Assembly: GCA_024280935.1 (NCBI GenBank)
Contig: JAJRPE010000215.1
Coordinates: 1-34,987, forward strand
Length of the DNA: 34,987 nt
Direction: 5' to 3'
DNA from: Candidatus Hydrogenedentota bacterium
GTDB taxonomy: Bacteria; Hydrogenedentota; Hydrogenedentia; Hydrogenedentales; JAEUWI01
Part shown: piece after piece, positions 6,379 through 32,480 of the stretch
Layout of the letters: each line of letters starts with the position of its first letter
Position numbering within the stretch: the stretch's first letter is position 1
Made by a program: the position numbers and the translations under genes
Notes under the pieces: generated by a model
The model's input: the letters and a program-made list of their open reading frames with translations, nothing else
Database searches by the model: none
What the model was told of the DNA's origin: nothing

Positions 6379-6503
6379 GCCCTGTTATCGACAATAAATT
6401 ATGAGTTTGCGATGTCGTTTTCGGCCTGAAAGGCCTCAACAGGTTAGCCCAGGGCAACGCCCTGGGAAAAAAGGAACTAGAAAATCAAAGCCCTGAAAGG
6501 GCG
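6379..6503. repeat. Family A dispersed palindromic repeat, copy 1
   Basis: 125 bp with three hairpins in series: GGCCTGAAAGGCC, CCCAGGGCAACGCCCTGGG and GCCCTGAAAGGGC. It matches 32237-32361 with five mismatches, in the same orientation relative to the downstream gene start. It lies in the 673-nt gap upstream of aspartate kinase. The AT-rich end faces that gene, 107 nt from its start codon. No opposing arm was found at this locus. Confidence 0.9.
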
Positions 6504-6604
6504 AAACACTATGTTCGTCGGATAATCAAGGGTGCTGCTCTCCCTCTACCGCTCTCCTGATCGTAAAACAACCTGTTTTATGTGCTATCGCCAGCAAAAG
6601 AATA

Positions 6605-6810
6605 TCTCGGGCTTACAGCCCTGGCCCGTTTTGTTCCTTTTTTCCTGGGGCTGCGCCCCAGGCTGGTATATCTCGCGCCGTTGGCGCTATCAAGTTCTCC
6701 TGAATTTTACACGGATTGAATACAGGGCCAACGGCCCGAACCCATACCAGCATGGGGCAACGCCCCATGTTATTGCGTAAGAAAAAAGGATAAGGGCTGA
6801 AAGCCCGAGC
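6605..6810. repeat. Large compound palindrome with nested hairpins
   Basis: Two imperfect arms of about 90-95 bp face each other around a centre near 6700. Each arm carries, in order, a GGGCTTnCAGCCC hairpin, a tract CCTTTTTTC, a GGGGC-n-GCCCC hairpin, the word CTGGTAT and a GCCGTTGGC hairpin. The arrangement is that of a large REPIN-like or MITE-like element. Together with copy 1 of family A it accounts for most of the 6273-6945 gap. Translated open frames across it are by-products of the palindromes. Confidence 0.8.
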
Positions 6811-6945
6811 CATCTTTTCACAGCCTGCTTGGAATCAAATTCAGCAACCCGATCATGTGAGATCGGTATTATGAGAGCAGCACCCATAATTAAAGTGTCG
6901 ATAGCAAAATTCAGAGGTCCTATGAAACTTTCCATACACCCGACC

Positions 6946-20073: not shown

Positions 20074-21513
20074 CTACGCGATCAACTCCTCGACCACCTC
20101 GCCAAAGACATCCGTCAGGCGAAAATCGCGGCCTTTGTAGTTGAAGGTCAGGCGCTCGTGGTCCATGCCCATGAGGTGCAGTATCGTGGCTTGCATGTCG
20201 TGGACGTGGACGGGCCGTTCGGCGACGTGGAAGCCGAGTTCGTCGGTGGCGCCGAGGGTTTGGCCCGCTTTCACGCCGCCGCCCGCGAGCCACATGGTGA
20301 AGGCCTGGGGATGGTGGTCGCGGCCCATGCTGCGGCCCAGGGCCGCGATGGATTCGACCATGGGGGTGCGGCCAAATTCACCGCCCCAGACGACGAGGGT
20401 GTCGTCGAGGAGGCCCCGGCGTTTCAGGTCGGTGATGAGGGCGGCACAGGCTTGGTCCGTCTCTTTGCACTTGGCCTTGAGTCCACCGGCCACGTCGCTG
20501 TGGTGGTCCCAGCTTCCGTGGTAACAATTGATGAAGCGCACGCCTCGCTCGACCATCCGCCGTGCGAGGAGGCAGTTGTTGGCGAAGGAGGGCTTGGCCG
20601 GGTCCGCGCCGTAAAGATCGAGGGTCTCCTGGCTTTCCTGGCCCAGGTCGATGAGATCCGGGGCGCTGCTTTGCATCTTGTAGGCCATTTCGTAGGCGTT
20701 GATGCGTGCGCTGATTTCGGGGTCGTGGAAGGTGTCCAGGCGGTGCTGGTTTAACCGATTGATGAGGTCGATGTTATTCCGCTGCAACGTGGGGTCGATG
20801 CCCGCCGGGCTGTTCACGTTGAGGATGGGACTGCCCTGGCTGCGGAAGGGGACGCCCTGGTATTCCGTGGGCAGAAAGCCACAACCCCAATTGTGGGCAC
20901 CCGCGCTCAGACCCGCGCCCGAGTTGAGCACCACGAAACCCGGCAGGTCGTCCGCCAAGCTGCCGAGGCCATAGGTTGCCCAGGAGCCGATACAGGGGCG
21001 CCCCTGTAGGGGTGAACCCGTGTTGATAAACAACTGGGCTGGGGCATGGTTGAATTGGTCGGTGTGTACCGAGCGCACAATGGCCAATTCATCGGCCACA
21101 CCGGACAGATGAGGCATCAATTCGGAAAGCTCCGCACCGGATTGGCCATGTCGGGCAAATTTGAAGCGCGAGGACATAAGATTGGCGTCGGGCTGGATAA
21201 AGGCATAGCGTTGATCTTTGACGATTTCCGCTGGTATGGGCTGGCCATCAAACTTTGTCAGCACGGGTTTGTTGTCGAAAAGATCCAGTTGGCTGGGCGC
21301 GCCCGCCATGAATAGATAGATGACGTGCTTGGCCTTCGCTTCAAAGTGAGAGGCCCGGGGCGCGAGTGGATTGGACGGCACCGCAGCGTTGGCCGCACGG
21401 TTGCACAGGAGCGATGCCAGTGCGATTTTACCCACGCCCACGCCACATTCCTTGAAGAAATGGCGACGGGTCGTCCCTTGAAGGGGGCTGGTTGGTTTTT
21501 CGTTTCTATCCAT
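20074..21513 (-). CDS. DUF1501 family protein, Tat-exported sulfatase-like
   Basis: A 479-residue DUF1501 protein of the alkaline phosphatase/sulfatase-like superfamily, abundant in Planctomycetes-type genomes and of unknown substrate. The N-terminus carries a twin-arginine signal (TTRRHFFKECG at 14-24, followed by a hydrophobic stretch to about residue 43), so it is folded before export. Other marks are KHVIYLFMAGAPSQLDLFDNKP, FNHAPAQLFINTGSP, RFINCYHGSWDHH and VVWGGEFGRTPM. The C-terminus GRDFRLTDVFGEVVEELI is normal. Such genes usually lie directly downstream of a DUF1549/DUF1553 gene. Here that partner is about 1.95 kb upstream, separated by a RAYT element, tandem repeats and another gene. 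Confidence 0.92.
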   Translation of the reverse strand: MDRNEKPTSPLQGTTRRHFFKECGVGVGKIALASLLCNRAANAAVPSNPLAPRASHFEAKAKHVIYLFMAGAPSQLDLFDNKPVLTKFDGQPIPAEIVKDQRYAFIQPDANLMSSRFKFARHGQSGAELSELMPHLSGVADELAIVRSVHTDQFNHAPAQLFINTGSPLQGRPCIGSWATYGLGSLADDLPGFVVLNSGAGLSAGAHNWGCGFLPTEYQGVPFRSQGSPILNVNSPAGIDPTLQRNNIDLINRLNQHRLDTFHDPEISARINAYEMAYKMQSSAPDLIDLGQESQETLDLYGADPAKPSFANNCLLARRMVERGVRFINCYHGSWDHHSDVAGGLKAKCKETDQACAALITDLKRRGLLDDTLVVWGGEFGRTPMVESIAALGRSMGRDHHPQAFTMWLAGGGVKAGQTLGATDELGFHVAERPVHVHDMQATILHLMGMDHERLTFNYKGRDFRLTDVFGEVVEELIA

Positions 21514-21697
21514 AATTTATGCTCTCTTCAGGGTGGCACAGCCATCTCGGCTGTGTTGTCACGCTGTCAAGCGCGACCATTGTGTGCTTGCCCAAGTTTT
21601 TGCTTGTCATAACCCAGAGGCTTTCCAGGCAGAATACTCAAACAAATGGGTTGCGATGTCGAGTCGATGTTTCGATTCATAAGGCGTTCAGGATCCG

Positions 21698-21822
21698 CTA
21701 CGGGTGCCACGAACAAGAGGCGATAGTCCTTGCCTGTGAGCGGATGTTCCTAACGCCATGTTCCTTATTTCTATGATTATTGCACGGGCAAGCCCTGCGG
21801 GGCTTGACCGTGGCACCCGTAG
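21698..21822. repeat. Family B REPIN-like element, copy 2
   Basis: Opposed arms at 21698-21739 and 21780-21822 share CTACGGGTGCCACG...GCCYGTG in inverted orientation, with CTTG/CAAG words inside, like copies at 17354 and 27275. Upstream, 21533-21560 holds a separate CACAGCC-ATCTC-GGCTGTG hairpin. These fill the 21514-21892 gap; no gene is seen. Confidence 0.78.
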
Positions 21823-21892
21823 CCGTATTTTGTAGTGTTGAGGCGCGAAAGTGCCTGAACGGGTTAACCCAAAGTGTTGGGCTAACCTGTTG

Positions 21893-22660
21893 TGCCCCGG
21901 AGGGGCAACGGAACTTAGCCCAGGGTGCAGCGAGGTACGAGCGAAACCCTGGGAATTTGTTTCGCAACTCCCGCTCAGACCCGCGTAGCGGGTGACGGAA
22001 GGTCTGTTGAGTGCTTGTGTTTTCAGGCAATCCCATGCAGAATGACGGAAAACGACAAGTCCGAAACAGAACAGGAGGCATATATGCCACAGTCATATTG
22101 CAATCTTCTTTATCATATGGTTTTCTCCACGAAACACCGCGAACCGTTGATTACCCCTGACATTCGCGAGCGAGTCTATTCCTATCTCGGCGGCGGAATC
22201 AAGGGCGAAAAGGGAATTCCCATACTCATCAACGGCATGGAGGATCATGTCCATATTCTTGCGGCCTTGCATCAGGATTGTTCCGTGTCGACCGTGTTGA
22301 GGAACATCAAAGCCAACTCCTCCAAATGGATCCATCGTGATTTTTCCGGTCATGATAATTTCGCTTGGCAATCGGGGTATGGTGCCTTCACGGTCAGTGC
22401 TAGTCAGAAGAACTCGGTATCCAAGTACATTGAAAATCAAGAAGAGCACCATAAAACGATGACCTTCAAGGAGGAATTTATTGGCCTGTTGAAGAAACAC
22501 GGAATCGAGTACGACGAACGGTATATCTGGGATTGAAAGTTTTCTGCGTACTTTTCCGTCGACCGCTTCGCGGGCTATTGTTGTGGGTTATATCGTGTAC
22601 CCAGGGTTTCGCTCGTGCCTCGCTGCACCCTGGGCTAAGTTCCGTTGCCCCTCCGGGGCA
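21893..22660 (+). mobile_element. RAYT element bounded by 61-bp inverted repeats
   Basis: The arms at 21893-21953 and 22600-22660 are inverted copies with a single mismatch (60 of 61). The 646-nt interior contains one transposase gene at 22084-22536. Each arm contains two hairpins, GCCCCGGAGGGGC and a longer CCCAGGGT...ACCCTGGG stem. Just outside the left arm the words GGTTAACCCA and GGGCTAACCTGTTG recall family A repeats. No target-site duplication could be identified by eye. Confidence 0.85.
22084..22536 (+). CDS. REP-associated tyrosine transposase (RAYT; IS200/IS605-like Y1)
   Basis: A 150-residue single-domain Y1 transposase. It opens with YCNLLYHMVFSTKHREP, has the HUH metal motif HVHIL at about residues 57-61 (after INGMEDHV), and ends with a GYGAFTVSASQKNSVSKYIENQ helix in which the catalytic tyrosine is expected (KYIENQEEHH). 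These enzymes cut and join single-stranded DNA at palindromic ends. The ATG at 22084 is chosen for its GGAGG with short spacing and because the protein then matches the family N-terminus; upstream codons are repeat sequence. It has no tnpB partner. It sits between inverted repeats, runs against the surrounding strand, and is the only mobile-element enzyme in the window. Confidence 0.92.
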   Translation: MPQSYCNLLYHMVFSTKHREPLITPDIRERVYSYLGGGIKGEKGIPILINGMEDHVHILAALHQDCSVSTVLRNIKANSSKWIHRDFSGHDNFAWQSGYGAFTVSASQKNSVSKYIENQEEHHKTMTFKEEFIGLLKKHGIEYDERYIWD

Positions 22661-22878
22661 TTTTGGTGTGACGTTGTGGGCTTGGCCTATCATTCGTTGC
22701 GCCGCCGGTCATTTTGGTGTGACCTTGTGGGCTTGGCCTACCATTCGTTGCGCCGCCGGTCATTTTGGTGTGACCTTGTGGGCTTGGCCTACCATTCGTT
22801 GCGCCGCCGGTCATTTTGGTGTGACGTTGTGGGCTTGGCCTATCCTCCGTTGCGCCGCCGGGGCATTTTGGTGCGATG
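22659..22878. repeat. 51-bp direct tandem repeat, four copies plus a partial
   Basis: Units begin CATTTTGGTGTGAC at 22659, 22710, 22761 and 22812, with a partial fifth at 22864. The two middle units are identical and the outer ones differ by a few bases. There are no spacers, so this is not CRISPR. The period is 17 codons, which keeps several frames open without implying coding. The array starts at the right arm of the RAYT element, whose last bases resemble the end of a repeat unit. Confidence 0.93.
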
Positions 22879-23301
22879 TTAGGTGTCTCCATTGTGTGAA
22901 ATGTACATGGTCACATTCACAGCATCGGACTTGGGGCTTGCGAAAGTCAGTTTGGCACCGACAGCAATGACCGAGAGATTAATCAGCAGGTCGAAGACAA
23001 ACCACCAAGTAACCCCAAAATTAAAGCCATCCAATTCAAAAAAGGATAAATGCCTTCTGAAATCGAGCGGGCTGTCCATCCATACGTTTGTAATGGCGGA
23101 CATGCCAATCATGGCCGTGGCAACAAACGTAAGGAGCACAAAGCTAACACCCTTACGGGACTTGCCGTATATCTGATTGTGGGCAGCGGCAAATAGTGGA
23201 AACGCCCACAAAATTCTCCATAGGGAGAACGCTACCAGCAAGGGCAACATGCATAAAACCATCAGAGCCAACTCCAGCGACATGAGCTTCTTTTGTTGCA
23301 T
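22879..23301 (-). CDS. Small integral membrane protein, unknown
   Basis: A 140-residue protein with about four predicted membrane helices: LALMVLCMLPLLVAFSLW, ILWAFPLFAAAHNQIYG, VSFVLLTFVATAMIGMSAI and WWFVFDLLINLSVIAVGA. A charged loop DSPLDFRRHLSFFELDG lies before the last helix. The ATG at 23301 has an excellent GGAGGAGA ribosome site, so it is probably a real gene. The stop codon falls at the edge of the 51-bp tandem repeat, so the original C-terminus may have been altered. No family is recognised. It lies between a DUF1553 and a DUF1501 gene that are normally adjacent. Confidence 0.72.
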   Translation of the reverse strand: MQQKKLMSLELALMVLCMLPLLVAFSLWRILWAFPLFAAAHNQIYGKSRKGVSFVLLTFVATAMIGMSAITNVWMDSPLDFRRHLSFFELDGFNFGVTWWFVFDLLINLSVIAVGAKLTFASPKSDAVNVTMYISHNGDT

Positions 23302-23434
23302 GATCTCCTCCAGTCTTTGTGTGTTCTCAGTGTAGCATGGCCTTATTCTGTTCGGGAGATGCGTCTACATTGTGTATTTAATTGCGAAAGCTCGTTCCAC
23401 AATATCTCGCATGTTGGATTGTCCATCGGACCCT

Positions 23435-23462
23435 TTGCGTCGGGCAGGGATGCCCAAGCTCC
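23435..23462 (-). repeat. Family D palindromic repeat near a stop codon, copy 2
   Basis: This 28-bp copy is 27/28 identical to 2489-2516 and ends 2 nt from the TAG of the DUF1553 gene. It contains the same GGGCA-TCCC-TGCCC hairpin. Confidence 0.75.
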
Positions 23463-23464
23463 TG

Positions 23465-26400
23465 CTAACCGCGTGTAATTGTTTCATCCAGGTTCAAGAC
23501 GGCCCGGCAGAGGAGCGTCCACGCCGCACGCTCAACCAGGATTTCGTTGGCTTCGTCTTCGCCGCCCTTCAGGAGCGCGTGAAGTGTCTCCGGGGATTGC
23601 GCCGCCAACAGCGCCCGCTGCTCGTCGAGATAGGCCAAGAGCGCTTCTTGCTCCATCCCATCCGGTTTCCGCGAGAGGCACCGCATGAAAAGGGCGTGAA
23701 GCCGACTCGCCGAATCAGGCTGCGTTTCGGCAAGCAGGGCTCCGGCCATACTCCGCGCCGCCTCCATAAAAACCTCGTCATTCAGCAGCGTCAGCGCCTG
23801 CATGGGCGTATTGGTCCGTATCCGGCGGACGCAGACCATGTCGCGGGCGGGTGCGTCAAAGACCGATGCCGCAGGGTAGGGGAGCATGCGCTTCCAGTAG
23901 GTGTACATGCCGCGACGGTAGCGATTTTTCCCCGTATCGGTGTTCCACTTGAAGCCGCCGTAGACAAACTGCATCAGGCCATCGGGAATGGGCGGAAATA
24001 CGCTGGGTCCACCCACCGTCATATCGAGGGAGCCGCTGGAAGCCAAGGCGATGTCGCGGACCATCTCCGCATCGACGCGAAAGCGGGGTGCCCGCGCAAG
24101 GTAAACATTGGTCGGGTCGATGGCTTGCTGTTCAGGGGTGATGCGGGCGGATTGGCGGTAGGTCGCTGACGTGACCATAAGCCGGACCATGTCCTTCATG
24201 CCCCAGCCCCGACGCATGAACTCCACCGCCAGCCAGTCGAGGAGTTCGGGGTGGGTAGGGGCTTCGCCCATTATCCCGAAGTCTTCCGTGGTGGCGACAA
24301 TGCCACGGCCAAATAGCTGCTGCCAGAGGCGGTTCATGGTAACCCGAGCCGTGAGCGGATTTTCTTCACTCACCAGCCATTTGGCGAGGGTCAGGCGGTT
24401 ACGCGGCGCAAATTCCGGCAGAGGCGGCAACACTTCCAAGACATCCGGCTGGACGGCCGCACGGGTGGAGAGGAATTCACCCCGATGATGGACGTGGGCC
24501 GTGCGCACCGCTTCCCGCTCTTCCAGGGCTAGGGTCGTGGGGAGCTTGGGGCGCGATTTCTCCAGCGCCGCAATTTCCTCGTGGGATTTCGCGAGTAGCG
24601 GTGTGTACGCCAGGAAGTAGTCTTCCAGCGCGGCTTGCACGGAGGGTGTTTGGGAATCGGCCAGCAGCATGGCTTCAATATCCGCAGGCACCCCCGAAGC
24701 TTCAGGCGCGGCACCATCCGTGACCGAAAGTCGAAAGCGCCCCAGCGTATGCTGGTGAATGTATTTTTGCTCCAAGGTCACAGAGAATATCGTGCCCCCG
24801 GCGAACCCAGTCGGCTCCTCGAAGCTGAACACTGCGCTGTGGGACTTGCCCTCACCTCCATGAATCGACCAGCCCGTGTCGGCCTTGCCGTCCAGGGCTT
24901 GCGCGGCCGTCTTGTTCCCATTTGCAAAGCTCTCCGTCGCATGCTTGATAGCGACGGGCAGCCGGGCCTCGGGATTGTCCCAAGGCGCGGCGCTTACCCT
25001 AATTCCAGTAAGGAGGAAGTCGCCTTCGGCGAGGATAACGCCGCGACCCGGCCCACCCCCCGGAAGGCTCTCGTGGGGCAGCACTTCCAAGCGTATTCCG
25101 GTAATCTCCTGTGCATCCGTGCGAAGGGTCAGGTCATAGATGTCATTGTTGGGGAGGTTGCCTTTCGCGAGAATAGAATTGTCTGGCAAGCGCACCAGAG
25201 TAGTGAGTTTTTTTGCGCTCATCTCCAGCGGGGTAAGGGGGTGCCAAGACTGACATTTAGTCTTGGTCTCGGCGGCCCACGCCGTGTATTGCTCCGCGAA
25301 AAACTGCTTGCGACGCTCCGCCTCGGGCACATCGGAATCGGGCACGGCCAGTGTCAAGGCCTCCAGACGAAAATTGTCCAGAGTGAGGTGGCTGCCATGT
25401 TGCTGTTCCAGCCGCACTTCGATATTTTGGGATTCAGTCAGTTCGAGGGGCTTGTCGAAATAGAACACCGACCGCCGGTCACGCTTGAGGCCCTTGGGGT
25501 CGCCCGCAATGGCCCAGCCCGTATTCATCTTGCCGTCAATAGCGTTCCCGATGGGAAAGTTGGCCTGTGAAAATTCGGTTTCGGCCTTATTAAATATCAG
25601 ACTCGTTCGGGCATCCCCATCCAGGCGGTAGCCGACGAACTCACTCAGCACGAAGTTTCCACCGGGCGCACGACCAGGCCCCTTTTTACCATTGGGCATG
25701 TGTAGCACCAGGCCATCAACACGGCCAGCGGGTAGCGTCAGCTTCGTGATGTAGGTGTTCTTCTCGGAATCGGTGGGGGAGACATCCACAATCCCGTCGG
25801 GCGCGACGGAAAGAACGCCACCCTGTGTTGCCCGCGCTTCGGTGGGGGCCAGGGGCTGGGTCGTTGGCGTGGGGTCATCGGCAGGAAATTTCTCGCGCAA
25901 GGTCGCACGCAACGCGTCGATTCGTGCTTGGTGCTCCACTTGACGCTGCACAATACCGGCATCAGGGACTTCCAGTGTTACGTCGTCCGTGTTGTTAAAG
26001 AAGGCGAAGAACTGGTAGTACTCCCGCTGGGTGATGGGGTCGTATTTGTGGGTGTGGCACTGGGCGCAACTGAAGGTAAGGCCCAAGAGCGCCGTGGCAG
26101 TCGTGTTCGTTCGGTCAACCACGTTTTTGTAGCGGAATTCCTCGACATCGATGCCGCCTTCTTCGTTAAGCATGACGTTGCGATGGAAGCCCGTGGCGAT
26201 ACGTTGTTCCAGCGTGGGAGAGGGCAACAGGTCGCCCGCGATCTGCTCAATGACAAAGCGGTCAAACGGCATATCGGCGTTGAAGGCGTTGATGATCCAA
26301 TCTCGGTAGGGCCAGATGCTGCGGGGACGGTCTTTCTCATAACCATTGGTGTCGGCATAGCGGGCCACGTCCAGCCAGGAGACTGCCTGCCGCTCGCCAT

Positions 26401-27103
26401 AGTGGGGAGAAGCCAGGAATTGCTCCACCAAGGCCTCGTAGGCATCTGGGCGGGTGTCGGCGAGAAAAGCGCTTACTTCGTCGGGCGTGGGGGGGAGTCC
26501 CCGCAGATCGAGGCTAAGCCGACGAATCAGGGTGTTGCGGTCCGCCACCGGTGAGGGGGCTAGGCCCTGCTCTTTCATTGCCCTGAGAACGAATGCATCG
26601 ATAGCGTTGTTGCCCAAATCAACGTCCTTCACGTTGGGTGGTGTTCGATGCTTCGGGGCCTTGAAGGACCAGAACGGCTCTTTTTCGGCATTCGTTTTGT
26701 TTGCTGTGCTCGCGCTCCACGAGGCACCAGCCCCAATCCACGCCCGTAGGGTGTCAATGTCTTCTTGAGGGACACGCGGGCCCTTGGGGGGCATCTGGAA
26801 GTCTTCATCGTCCGACATGATGCGCTGAAGCAGGGGGATGAGACCGTCCCCATTTGCGACGAAGGGCGAGTGCCCGTCGTCGCCGCCCAGGCGTGCGTCC
26901 TTCTCGTTGCTCAGGCGGAGGCCGCCCTTCCGCTTCTCCGGGCCATGGCATTGGTAACAGTGGGTTTCTAGAATGGGCGCTATCTGCCGTGTGAAATCCG
27001 GGGACTCGGCGCGGGCTTGGCACAAGGGCACTACCAAGGCCAGGGACAGGGACAGGACTCCAGGAATTAAGAATTGAATTATTCGTCGTCTGCTGCGTTG
27101 CAA
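23465..27103 (-). CDS. Planctomycete cytochrome-C/DUF1549/DUF1553 protein
   Basis: An exported protein of about 1,212 residues. Numbered from an upstream GTG at 27142, the layout is: signal peptide to about 45; a PSCyt1 haem domain with CYQCH (62-66); DUF1549/PSCyt2 from about 178 to 395 with a second CAQCH (359-363); a middle region with two similar modules (about 490-597 and 695-807); and DUF1553/PSD1 from about 905 to 1160. TTG at 27103 is preferred over that GTG because GGAGG lies 7 nt upstream and the signal then begins QRSRRRIIQFLIPG. The family is thought to act in periplasmic degradation of complex compounds, but its reaction is unknown. The DUF1501 partner lies downstream, separated by inserted sequence. 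Confidence 0.93.
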   Translation of the reverse strand: MQRSRRRIIQFLIPGVLSLSLALVVPLCQARAESPDFTRQIAPILETHCYQCHGPEKRKGGLRLSNEKDARLGGDDGHSPFVANGDGLIPLLQRIMSDDEDFQMPPKGPRVPQEDIDTLRAWIGAGASWSASTANKTNAEKEPFWSFKAPKHRTPPNVKDVDLGNNAIDAFVLRAMKEQGLAPSPVADRNTLIRRLSLDLRGLPPTPDEVSAFLADTRPDAYEALVEQFLASPHYGERQAVSWLDVARYADTNGYEKDRPRSIWPYRDWIINAFNADMPFDRFVIEQIAGDLLPSPTLEQRIATGFHRNVMLNEEGGIDVEEFRYKNVVDRTNTTATALLGLTFSCAQCHTHKYDPITQREYYQFFAFFNNTDDVTLEVPDAGIVQRQVEHQARIDALRATLREKFPADDPTPTTQPLAPTEARATQGGVLSVAPDGIVDVSPTDSEKNTYITKLTLPAGRVDGLVLHMPNGKKGPGRAPGGNFVLSEFVGYRLDGDARTSLIFNKAETEFSQANFPIGNAIDGKMNTGWAIAGDPKGLKRDRRSVFYFDKPLELTESQNIEVRLEQQHGSHLTLDNFRLEALTLAVPDSDVPEAERRKQFFAEQYTAWAAETKTKCQSWHPLTPLEMSAKKLTTLVRLPDNSILAKGNLPNNDIYDLTLRTDAQEITGIRLEVLPHESLPGGGPGRGVILAEGDFLLTGIRVSAAPWDNPEARLPVAIKHATESFANGNKTAAQALDGKADTGWSIHGGEGKSHSAVFSFEEPTGFAGGTIFSVTLEQKYIHQHTLGRFRLSVTDGAAPEASGVPADIEAMLLADSQTPSVQAALEDYFLAYTPLLAKSHEEIAALEKSRPKLPTTLALEEREAVRTAHVHHRGEFLSTRAAVQPDVLEVLPPLPEFAPRNRLTLAKWLVSEENPLTARVTMNRLWQQLFGRGIVATTEDFGIMGEAPTHPELLDWLAVEFMRRGWGMKDMVRLMVTSATYRQSARITPEQQAIDPTNVYLARAPRFRVDAEMVRDIALASSGSLDMTVGGPSVFPPIPDGLMQFVYGGFKWNTDTGKNRYRRGMYTYWKRMLPYPAASVFDAPARDMVCVRRIRTNTPMQALTLLNDEVFMEAARSMAGALLAETQPDSASRLHALFMRCLSRKPDGMEQEALLAYLDEQRALLAAQSPETLHALLKGGEDEANEILVERAAWTLLCRAVLNLDETITRG

Positions 27104-27189
27104 TGCACTACCTCCAGCGCTGCGCCCGCTAAGCCTGTTCACGGGAGCTGCCTCTCGTCAGGATAACAAATCAGCGTGGAGGAGTCCTA

Positions 27190-32236: not shown

Positions 32237-32480
32237 GCCCTGGTATCGACAATAAATTATGAGTTTGCGATGTCGTTTTCGGCCTGAAAGGCCTCAACAG
32301 GTTAGCCCAGGGCAGCGTCCTGGGAAAAAAGGAACTAGAAAACCAATGCCCTGAAAGGGCGGAATAGAAGCACATCACGGCCACGGTTTCGCCCTTTCAG
32401 GGCTGTTAATTGTTTCTACATTCTGACCCAGGGCGTTGCCTTGGGCTAACCTGTTGGACCCCTTCGGGGCGGTCGCTCAT
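32237..32480. repeat. Family A compound palindrome, copy 2 (both arms)
   Basis: The left arm (32237-32361) repeats 6379-6503 with five mismatches over 125 bp. An opposing imperfect arm (about 32381-32480) reads, in reverse complement, the same order: GGGGT..CCAACAGGTTAGCCCA..GCCCTGGG..GCCCTGAAAGGGCG. The pair makes a REPIN-like palindrome of about 200 bp. It occupies the 5' region of the TMTC-like gene. The rest of the 32231-32659 gap, up to the family C copy, has no gene. Confidence 0.87.

Follow-up and report, generated by a model that had tools for sequence, protein, structure and literature searches.

The window analysed here (the whole stretch of 34,987 nt from a Candidatus Hydrogenedentota genome) carries a Y1 transposase gene enclosed by two long inverted arms, which raises the question of whether this is a RAYT, an insertion sequence or something else, and of whether it moves. 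The arms, reported in the preliminary description as 61 bp long, matching at 60 positions and holding two hairpins each around a single Y1 transposase, were confirmed: positions 21893–21953 and 22600–22660 form a 61-nt inverted repeat, complementary at 60/61 positions with a spacing of 646 nt, and folding yields two hairpins per arm, A (21893–21907) and B (21919–21953) on the left, joined by a linker of 11 nt that ends in TTAG. A third hairpin, C, was read from the sequence on the inner side of each arm (21979–21993 and 22561–22576). The ORF between the arms (22084–22536) is intact and encodes a Y1_Tnp protein of 150 aa, with AGGAGG shortly 5′ of its ATG. The features of the unit and of its surroundings are as follows:

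21893–21907, plus strand: hairpin A of the left arm (TGCCCC-gga-GGGGCA), by folding; doubles as hairpin A of a weak left-pointing arm
21908–21918, plus strand: linker ACGGAACTTAG, its (T)AG being the foot of hairpin B; conserved for the most part across the genome's 59 distinct arm copies
21919–21953, plus strand: hairpin B of the left arm (CCCAGGGT ... ACCCTGGG), by folding; compensatory changes among genome copies
21979–21993, plus strand: inner hairpin C on the left (ACCCGCGTAGCGGGT), then GACGGA; like a hairpin in gene-less copies
22084–22536, plus strand: tnpA, Y1 HUH transposase of 150 aa with the subclass 1.2 signature, by ORF, profiles, motifs and fold
22561–22576, minus strand: hairpin C, inner right, TTCCGTC adjoining; like a hairpin in gene-less copies
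22600–22634, minus strand: hairpin B of the right arm, by inverted repeat and folding
22635–22645, minus strand: linker of the right arm, by inverted repeat and folding
22646–22660, minus strand: hairpin A of the right arm, by inverted repeat and folding
21893–22660, plus strand: whole arm-to-arm unit, 768 bp, with putative transposon tips, by arm pair and genome copies
6422–6688: gene-less inverted A–B arm pair in the window (6422–6466 plus, 6644–6688 minus)
32280–32471: gene-less inverted A–B arm pair in the window (32280–32324 plus, 32427–32471 minus)
21514–23464, no strand: stretch between the DUF1553 and DUF1501 genes that contains the unit, 1,951 bp; 11–56 bp in five of five relatives examined

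The focal arm pair scored 117. Among 166 control ORFs of the homologue loci, whose flanks were scored in the same way, a single value exceeded 29; it reached 108 and came from a locus rich in tandem repeats (L122). Words beside the left arm had been said to match repeats elsewhere in the window, and they do look cognate: GGCTAACCTGTTGWG, next to that arm, recurs with no more than two mismatches at three more window sites (four in total vs 0.10 expected), and these three lie in the linkers of further A–B arms at 6422–6466, 32280–32324 and 32427–32471. Other A–B arms are clustered at 6422–6830 and 32280–32471, with at least two linker types, one of which resembles the arm of a 35% paralogue on contig C259. 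A weak arm pointing leftwards (21868–21907, minus strand, 17.7 bits) uses the focal left hairpin A as its own; a hairpin A common to two opposed arms fits the joining of elements at that hairpin, in this one case. In a check for the CGTC tag, words like TTCCGTC or TATGTC were found to precede hairpins A and C on the opposite strand (copies read by eye), and the stems of A and C (∼5–7 bp) are shorter than the 8–9-bp stem of a CGTC-tagged REP.

The label RAYT, which the preliminary description gave to the transposase, did not hold in its strict sense. The focal protein matches Pfam Y1_Tnp (PF01797) with 91.6 bits and passes the NCBIfam IS200 model (NF033573; 69.8 bits, cut-off 55), but fails REP_Tyr_transpos (26.9 bits, cut-off 80). 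A sequence search matched it to the TnpA proteins of IS608 (ISHp608) and ISDra2, which were also the top PDB matches (TM 0.60–0.66) of its AlphaFold model (mean pLDDT 94.3, pTM 0.89); the REP-associated transposase 4er8 came at rank 30. Its catalytic residues are intact (HUH H55/H57, Y115, Q119), and H55, H57, K76, W95, Y115, Q119, H122, H123 and E131 are invariant in 63 aligned TnpA proteins. The focal protein (P0001) carries the motifs DHVH, WQ and YIENQEEHH and not the Y..NP that marks class 2; all of [DN]HxH, WQ and Y..Q..[HK]H were present at 104 of 108 homologue loci. For comparison, eight class 2 (Y..NP) Y1 proteins were recovered from 14 loci of the same genome; in a quick tree, the 63 homologues were split from them by a branch with an SH-aLRT of 99%. 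On the grounds of the failed cut-off, the missing Y..NP and the separate tree group, identity with class 2 RAYTs was rejected.

When its motif set and length were held against the published description, the focal TnpA fitted the signature of subclass 1.2. In its accessible text, that description (Quentin et al. 2018, PMC6006769) places subclass 1.2 mostly in Cyanobacteria and Bacteroidetes, at low copy number and with a median length of 148, gives its REP status as ‘no’, and has it ‘generally without’ typical terminal structures and without IS properties. The focal protein agrees with this in length (150 aa), in DHVH, WQ and Y..NQ..HH, in a conserved C-terminal stretch and in low copy number. 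Unlike the subclass as described there, the focal family has hairpin ends, dispersed copies and members in further phyla. Since the accessible wording of PMC6006769 is ‘generally’, the hairpin-bearing inverted ends of the focal unit are read here as correcting that description.

The genome to which the window belongs is a draft (6.76 Mb, 661 contigs). The preliminary description had suggested searching it for the 61-bp arm, and the arm proved to be repeated genome-wide: the left arm matched at least 51 places (40 of 221 candidates scored), with a best whole-arm identity of 98%. Inward-facing arm pairs less than 400 bp across and without tnpA, in the manner of REPINs and MITEs, were found at 33 of 37 further arm loci read, the exceptions being L007, L065, L069 and L071. 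The printed gene-less copies are mostly ∼220 bp long and show like hairpins A, B, C and then C, B, A; at L065 the two ends of a gene-less copy are unlike each other, as though by recombination between two families. There is no second, nearly identical copy of the focal tnpA, its paralogues being 61% identical over the full length, 66% over residues 45–150, and 35%, so that the multiple near-identical full copies of an IS200-type element were not found in this genome. Multiplication has mainly been that of gene-less copies, as in RAYT/REP systems.

Many of the focal-family gene-less copies lie inside a repeat of ∼430 bp (L005, L009–L017, L019, L055, L056, L058, L060–L064 and L066), the right part of which holds a CCCTTTCAGGG-type palindrome in several cases. 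The ORFs upstream of six copies were mutually unlike by eye, so the idea that these repeats are gene tails was rejected and they were treated as non-coding. Since many copies sit inside larger repeats, some may be passengers. When the flanks of gene-less copies from several families were compared, neither a cleavage site nor a target word or duplication common across families was seen. A T precedes the end in 39 of 40 distinct ends of the type found around the 61% paralogue on contig C625, and a C precedes ATAG in 14 of 14 left ends of the type found around the paralogue on C320; in both types, many copies are within shared larger repeats.

These two paralogues have arms of their own. That of C625 is surrounded by a different arm, present in at least 40 places of the genome (40 of 81 candidates scored), and C320, with a tnpA match split over two frames, by a third type, which was present in all 11 other loci compared (found via tnpA fragments; best arm per locus 92–100% identical). 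Ten copies could be aligned with C320: six lacked the same 269 bp of the tnpA region, two lacked the same 383 bp, and the remaining two had deletions of 308 and 306 bp. When copies at several loci have lost internal sequence but kept their ends, this is a classical indication of movement in trans. Across three paralogues of a single genome, arm family and enclosed tnpA go together. L023, where the tnpA match is split over two frames, was excluded from set A4.

Hairpin B appears to have been maintained as a paired structure among the dispersed arms. All 68 blastn arm hits spanning it, found by sequence alone, were taken, of which 59 were distinct; 99.4% of cells were paired, and 37 were doubly changed vs 8.4 ± 2.1 in shuffled sets. 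The number of pairs with a double change was not significant in these 59 arms (79 of 500 shuffles as high), nor was that of further pair types (76 of 500). Most linker positions were at least 90% conserved in the same set. A hand-picked set (A3, 33 of 70 printed arms) gave 26 doubly changed cells vs 6.5; it omitted some arms in which hairpin B carries an additional base or lacks one, and the conclusion rests on the 59-arm set.

In the window, the unit lies between a DUF1501 gene (20074–21513) and a DUF1553/PSCyt gene (23465–27142). At five of five orthologous loci, from three genomes of the same genus and two of the same family (a sixth orthologue, in G005 of the same family, was left out), the DUF1553 and DUF1501 genes are adjacent, with 11–56 bp between the matched ends and no tnpA match. 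The comparison of empty and filled sites proposed in the preliminary description shows an uninterrupted operon in these relatives, but 1,951 bp differ, and it does not single out the arrival of the unit because this stretch also holds a 51-bp tandem array (4.6 copies, 22643–22880, overlapping the end of the right arm), a 140-aa ORF absent from the relatives along with the stretch (22879–23301, minus strand, no Pfam match) and another inverted repeat. What was inserted at this locus exceeds the 768-bp unit: it is a composite of 1,951 bp. The word GGGGCATTTTGGTG stands at both ends of the tandem array, and an imperfect inverted repeat of 21 nt (21697–21717 and 21803–21823, 90%) was seen to the left of the unit. 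Beside the nearest homologue (82%, L074 in genome G001) no match to the window's neighbour genes was found; a 58% homologue (L094 in genome G003) is also near a DUF1501 gene, and such genes are numerous (28 matches in the window's own genome). The earlier picture of a recently moved or self-mobile, IS-like unit of ∼768 bp stands in part: the unit looks self-mobile, but there is no near-identical tnpA copy, the copies are mainly gene-less and the insertion is the composite. A lone arm pair, always at one locus and with a decayed gene, which the preliminary description had set against mobility, is not the situation here, given the 51 or more matches, the intact ORF and the uninterrupted operon of all five relatives.

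The survey of homologues comprised 108 loci: four from the same genome, 24 of 28 from relatives (L091, L092, L093 and L100, contig-edge or weak matches, were excluded) and 80 of 123 candidates from named genomes; the counts are not independent, since 23 of the loci belong to Flavobacterium or a genus close to it. At the 106 loci with sufficient flank, two being short of it, the 450 bp on each side were searched for the best inverted repeat between them. Its score exceeded 46 at 61 of these 106 loci vs one of the 166 control ORFs of the same loci, and chance inverted repeats were rejected as an explanation; it exceeded 30 at 75 vs one control, leaving 31 loci without. Against a cross-locus null, 62 of 108 loci were above the 99% quantile and 74 above the 95% quantile. 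A strict A–linker–B parse succeeded in 60 of 214 homologue flanks vs nine of 425 control and none of 214 shuffled flanks. Among the 41 parses scoring at least 11, a few of which look spurious, the foot of B was TAG in 20 and CAG in 10, the loop of A was GAA or GGA in 26, and the median distance from hairpin B to the CDS was 56 nt. A looser parser, which allowed linkers of 5–15 nt and demanded an AG, AA or GG foot, gave linkers of 10–13 nt in 48 of 64 parses. Many homologue loci, in several phyla, share a common plan: hairpin A, a linker, usually of 10–13 nt, ending in (T/C)AG, B, C, the gene and the mirror image.

A covariance model (R1) was made from 26 parsed arms (set A2, cut from 35 rows of A1); these seeds are biased, as is covariation within A2, because the rows were chosen by the hairpin parser. 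At E ≤ 0.01 it gave 104 hits in 99 loci (86 within 200 bp of tnpA, 72 inward-pointing), including an inward hit at 20 of 76 searched loci that had provided no seed; L081 and L090 were outside this search. At E ≤ 0.001, 14 of 20 homologue genomes had matches and six had none, the richest having 102, 49 and 36 (a Verrucomicrobium, a Chlamydiae MAG and a Lentisphaeria MAG).

The A–linker–B arm resembles Acido-Lenti-1 (Rfam RF01687) read from the other strand, with agreement in the two hairpins, the linker and their order. The focal arms reach 34.2 bits (E about 1e-4), below the gathering score of 37 bits, probably because the loop of hairpin B has 19 nt; the other window matches are at 6644–6688 (41.0 bits), 6422–6466 (30.7 bits) and 32280–32324 (23.9 bits). 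When 72 distinct tnpA loci were scanned (four scans of 20 loci, minus L005, L017 and L025, which have no full tnpA, and five repeats), RF01687 was the only Rfam family to reach its gathering score, with 15 hits in eight loci, 12 of them within 300 bp of tnpA; the other 64 loci gave no RF01687 hit at that score. A homologue in genome G086 has one hit on each side (54.5 and 53.3 bits). Among 68 genomes of the window's phylum, its own included, 32 had both tnpA (E ≤ 1e-15) and RF01687 (E ≤ 1e-5), 10 had tnpA only, eight had RF01687 only and 18 had neither (Fisher P = 3.4e-4); the co-occurrence weakens with correction for genome size (partial rank correlation 0.24, permutation P = 0.024). A second set of 30 genomes, which overlaps in part with these 68 and again includes its own, gave 17, four, three and six in the same order. 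Acido-Lenti-1 may be the ends of mobile DNA rather than RNA.

Taken together, the sequences point to the 768-bp unit being, probably, a mobile or until recently mobile HUH single-strand element, with a TnpA-Y1 at its core that bears the signature of subclass 1.2. It is neither an ordinary RAYT nor a plain IS, and is of the single-strand transposase kind; the best reading would be a mobile, IS200-like/REPtron-like unit, with gene-less copies that are, or have been, moved in trans. Support at this level comes from the catalytic residues, the mirror-image A/B/C ends, the dispersed gene-less copies with both ends, the paralogue-specific copy families, the shared deletion sizes and the absence from the orthologous locus of relatives. 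Points against it are the focal arm scores under 37 bits, the 64 of 72 scanned loci that gave no RF01687 hit at the gathering score, the weaker co-occurrence after correction for genome size, the 31 of 106 loci with no repeat above 30, and the six of 20 genomes in which R1 matched nothing. It also seems fairly likely that Acido-Lenti-1, instead of being an RNA gene, forms the DNA end of a multi-phylum transposon family and provides the substrate that the orphan TnpA-Y1 subclass 1.2 has been lacking. Such ends would be distinct in being mirror images with several hairpins each, two of them usually 10–13 nt apart, and in forming a separate end family for each of several paralogues in one genome.

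A TnpA dimer would bind hairpins that have folded from single-stranded DNA (the lagging-strand template, probably), with guidance from the (T/C)AG foot, as in REP/IS608 systems. The enzyme would cut just outside hairpin A and rejoin the strand at another place, gene-less copies that share these ends would be moved in trans, and Acido-Lenti-1 (RF01687) would be this kind of end, seen as DNA, and not a free-standing sRNA. Being inverted copies of each other, the ends look the same on both strands, like those of REPINs. The expectation that TnpA reads the hairpins with a (T/C)AG guide is based on analogy with IS608/ISDra2 and REPs; according to the accessible text of PMC8266576, the cut site in IS608 and ISDra2 is selected with the help of guide tetranucleotides that lie 5′ of the palindromes, and in REPs GTAG may have this part.

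Another possibility, which we regard as somewhat unlikely, is that tnpA is a domesticated, RAYT-like host gene with a housekeeping role on single-stranded DNA, its arms being kept as binding or regulatory sites and the element being immobile now. The lack of a near-identical second tnpA copy is in keeping with this, as is the statement, in the accessible part of PMC6006769, that subclass 1.2 has no IS properties. Moreover, among 23 homologues (L126–L178; 22 of Flavobacterium, one of [Flexibacter]), 19 have the same neighbours on both sides; since they occupy one locus, the family also has settled members. Immobility is harder to reconcile with the uninterrupted operon of the five relatives examined, the absence of the unit's neighbours beside its 82% homologue, the multiplication of internally deleted copies, and gene-less copies of up to 98% whole-arm identity.

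The arm pairs might also have been spread by recombination, or by this genome's class 2 Y1 transposases, and have come to stand around the focal tnpA by chance, which we consider improbable. Eight class 2 proteins are available for this role, many arm pairs are inside larger repeats, and the seven testable class 2 loci have inverted-repeat scores of 32–71, four of them above 46 and of other designs. Class 2 (Y..NP) genes lie at L043–L046, L048, L050 and L052, several with inverted repeats of another design. Because four of the seven score above 46, long inverted repeats per se are not peculiar to subclass 1.2, and the hairpin plan and the resemblance to RF01687 are taken as the specific features, the class 2 loci having been compared by repeat score alone. 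Chance is opposed by the match between arm family and inner tnpA for three paralogues of one genome, and by the recurrence of the same plan around homologues in several phyla.

It is quite improbable, in our estimation, that Acido-Lenti-1 is a true small RNA, or a control element made of RNA, which some transposase genes acquired as their flank. Rfam types RF01687 as ‘Gene; sRNA’, a catalogue status which, like their score under 37 bits, sets the focal arms apart from it, and the table of Weinberg 2010, in the accessible text of PMC2864571, marks it as probably RNA and gives no function. The eight genomes with RF01687 and no tnpA count against the transposon-end reading. Against an RNA stand the inverted pairs around tnpA and in gene-less copies, the matches per genome (up to 124 for RF01687 and 102 for R1), and arm families that differ by tnpA paralogue within one genome. 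As far as its accessible text goes, a paper of June 2026 (PMC13298647) holds that little is known of Acido-Lenti-1 and suggests a possible role in regulating virulence proteases; in that of PMC10059132 the family is only listed. No link to a transposase was found in the open-access literature searched, and when the palindromes were searched as words, the matches listed were unrelated by title. If Acido-Lenti-1 is a transposon end, readings as a protease regulator such as that in the accessible text of PMC13298647 need rethinking; the reading also proposes a DNA substrate for an orphan transposase subclass and an identity for an orphan Rfam family, and a single enzyme with a single oligonucleotide would suffice to test both. 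That the hairpins are merely bidirectional terminators or mRNA guards of a small gene is very unlikely and was rejected, for although they lie close to the ORF in homologues (the median of 56 nt given above), no T-run is visible by eye in the common plan, and the mirror symmetry, the 10–13-nt linker of 48/64 parses, the (T/C)AG foot (AG, AA or GG being required by the parser) and the gene-less copies all speak against it.

The unit, read as a single-strand element, has counterparts among known systems. With IS200/IS605 (subclass 1.1; IS608, ISDra2) it shares the HUH-Y1 fold and residues and hairpins at both ends, but its ends are long inverted repeats of several hairpins, it holds no other gene, and its gene-less copies outnumber those of tnpA; IS608 has one subterminal hairpin at each end. 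RAYT/REPtrons (class 2, REP/REPIN) likewise combine one gene with cognate dispersed palindromes in inverted pairs, and (T/C)AG recalls their GTAG, but the focal protein is on the IS200 side (Y..Q, not Y..NP) and each end has an extra outer hairpin, usually 10–13 nt away. MITEs are similar in being gene-less, about 220 bp long and bounded by inverted ends, with the internally deleted C320 family as a further parallel; unlike theirs, the ends here are hairpins of a single-strand transposase, and no target-site duplication was seen. The unit resembles a TIRtron/TIRYT (Di Nocera et al. 2013, PMC3733652, accessible text) in having a Y1 gene between long inverted repeats, and some of those repeats are self-complementary and repeated in the genome; in the accessible text of PMC6006769, 20 of the 26 TIRYTs belong to subclass 2.1, six to 2.2 or 2.5 and none to 1.2.

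Several transposases in one genome, each with its own end family, offer a natural test of the co-evolution of hairpin, guide and cut site. Arms were also seen in other arrangements: at L213 and L214 (genome G085) A–B arms stand in direct tandem rows and not in inverted pairs, and at L197 (G005, contig C63) two arms are fused via one hairpin B into a long palindrome, beside a duplicated flank.
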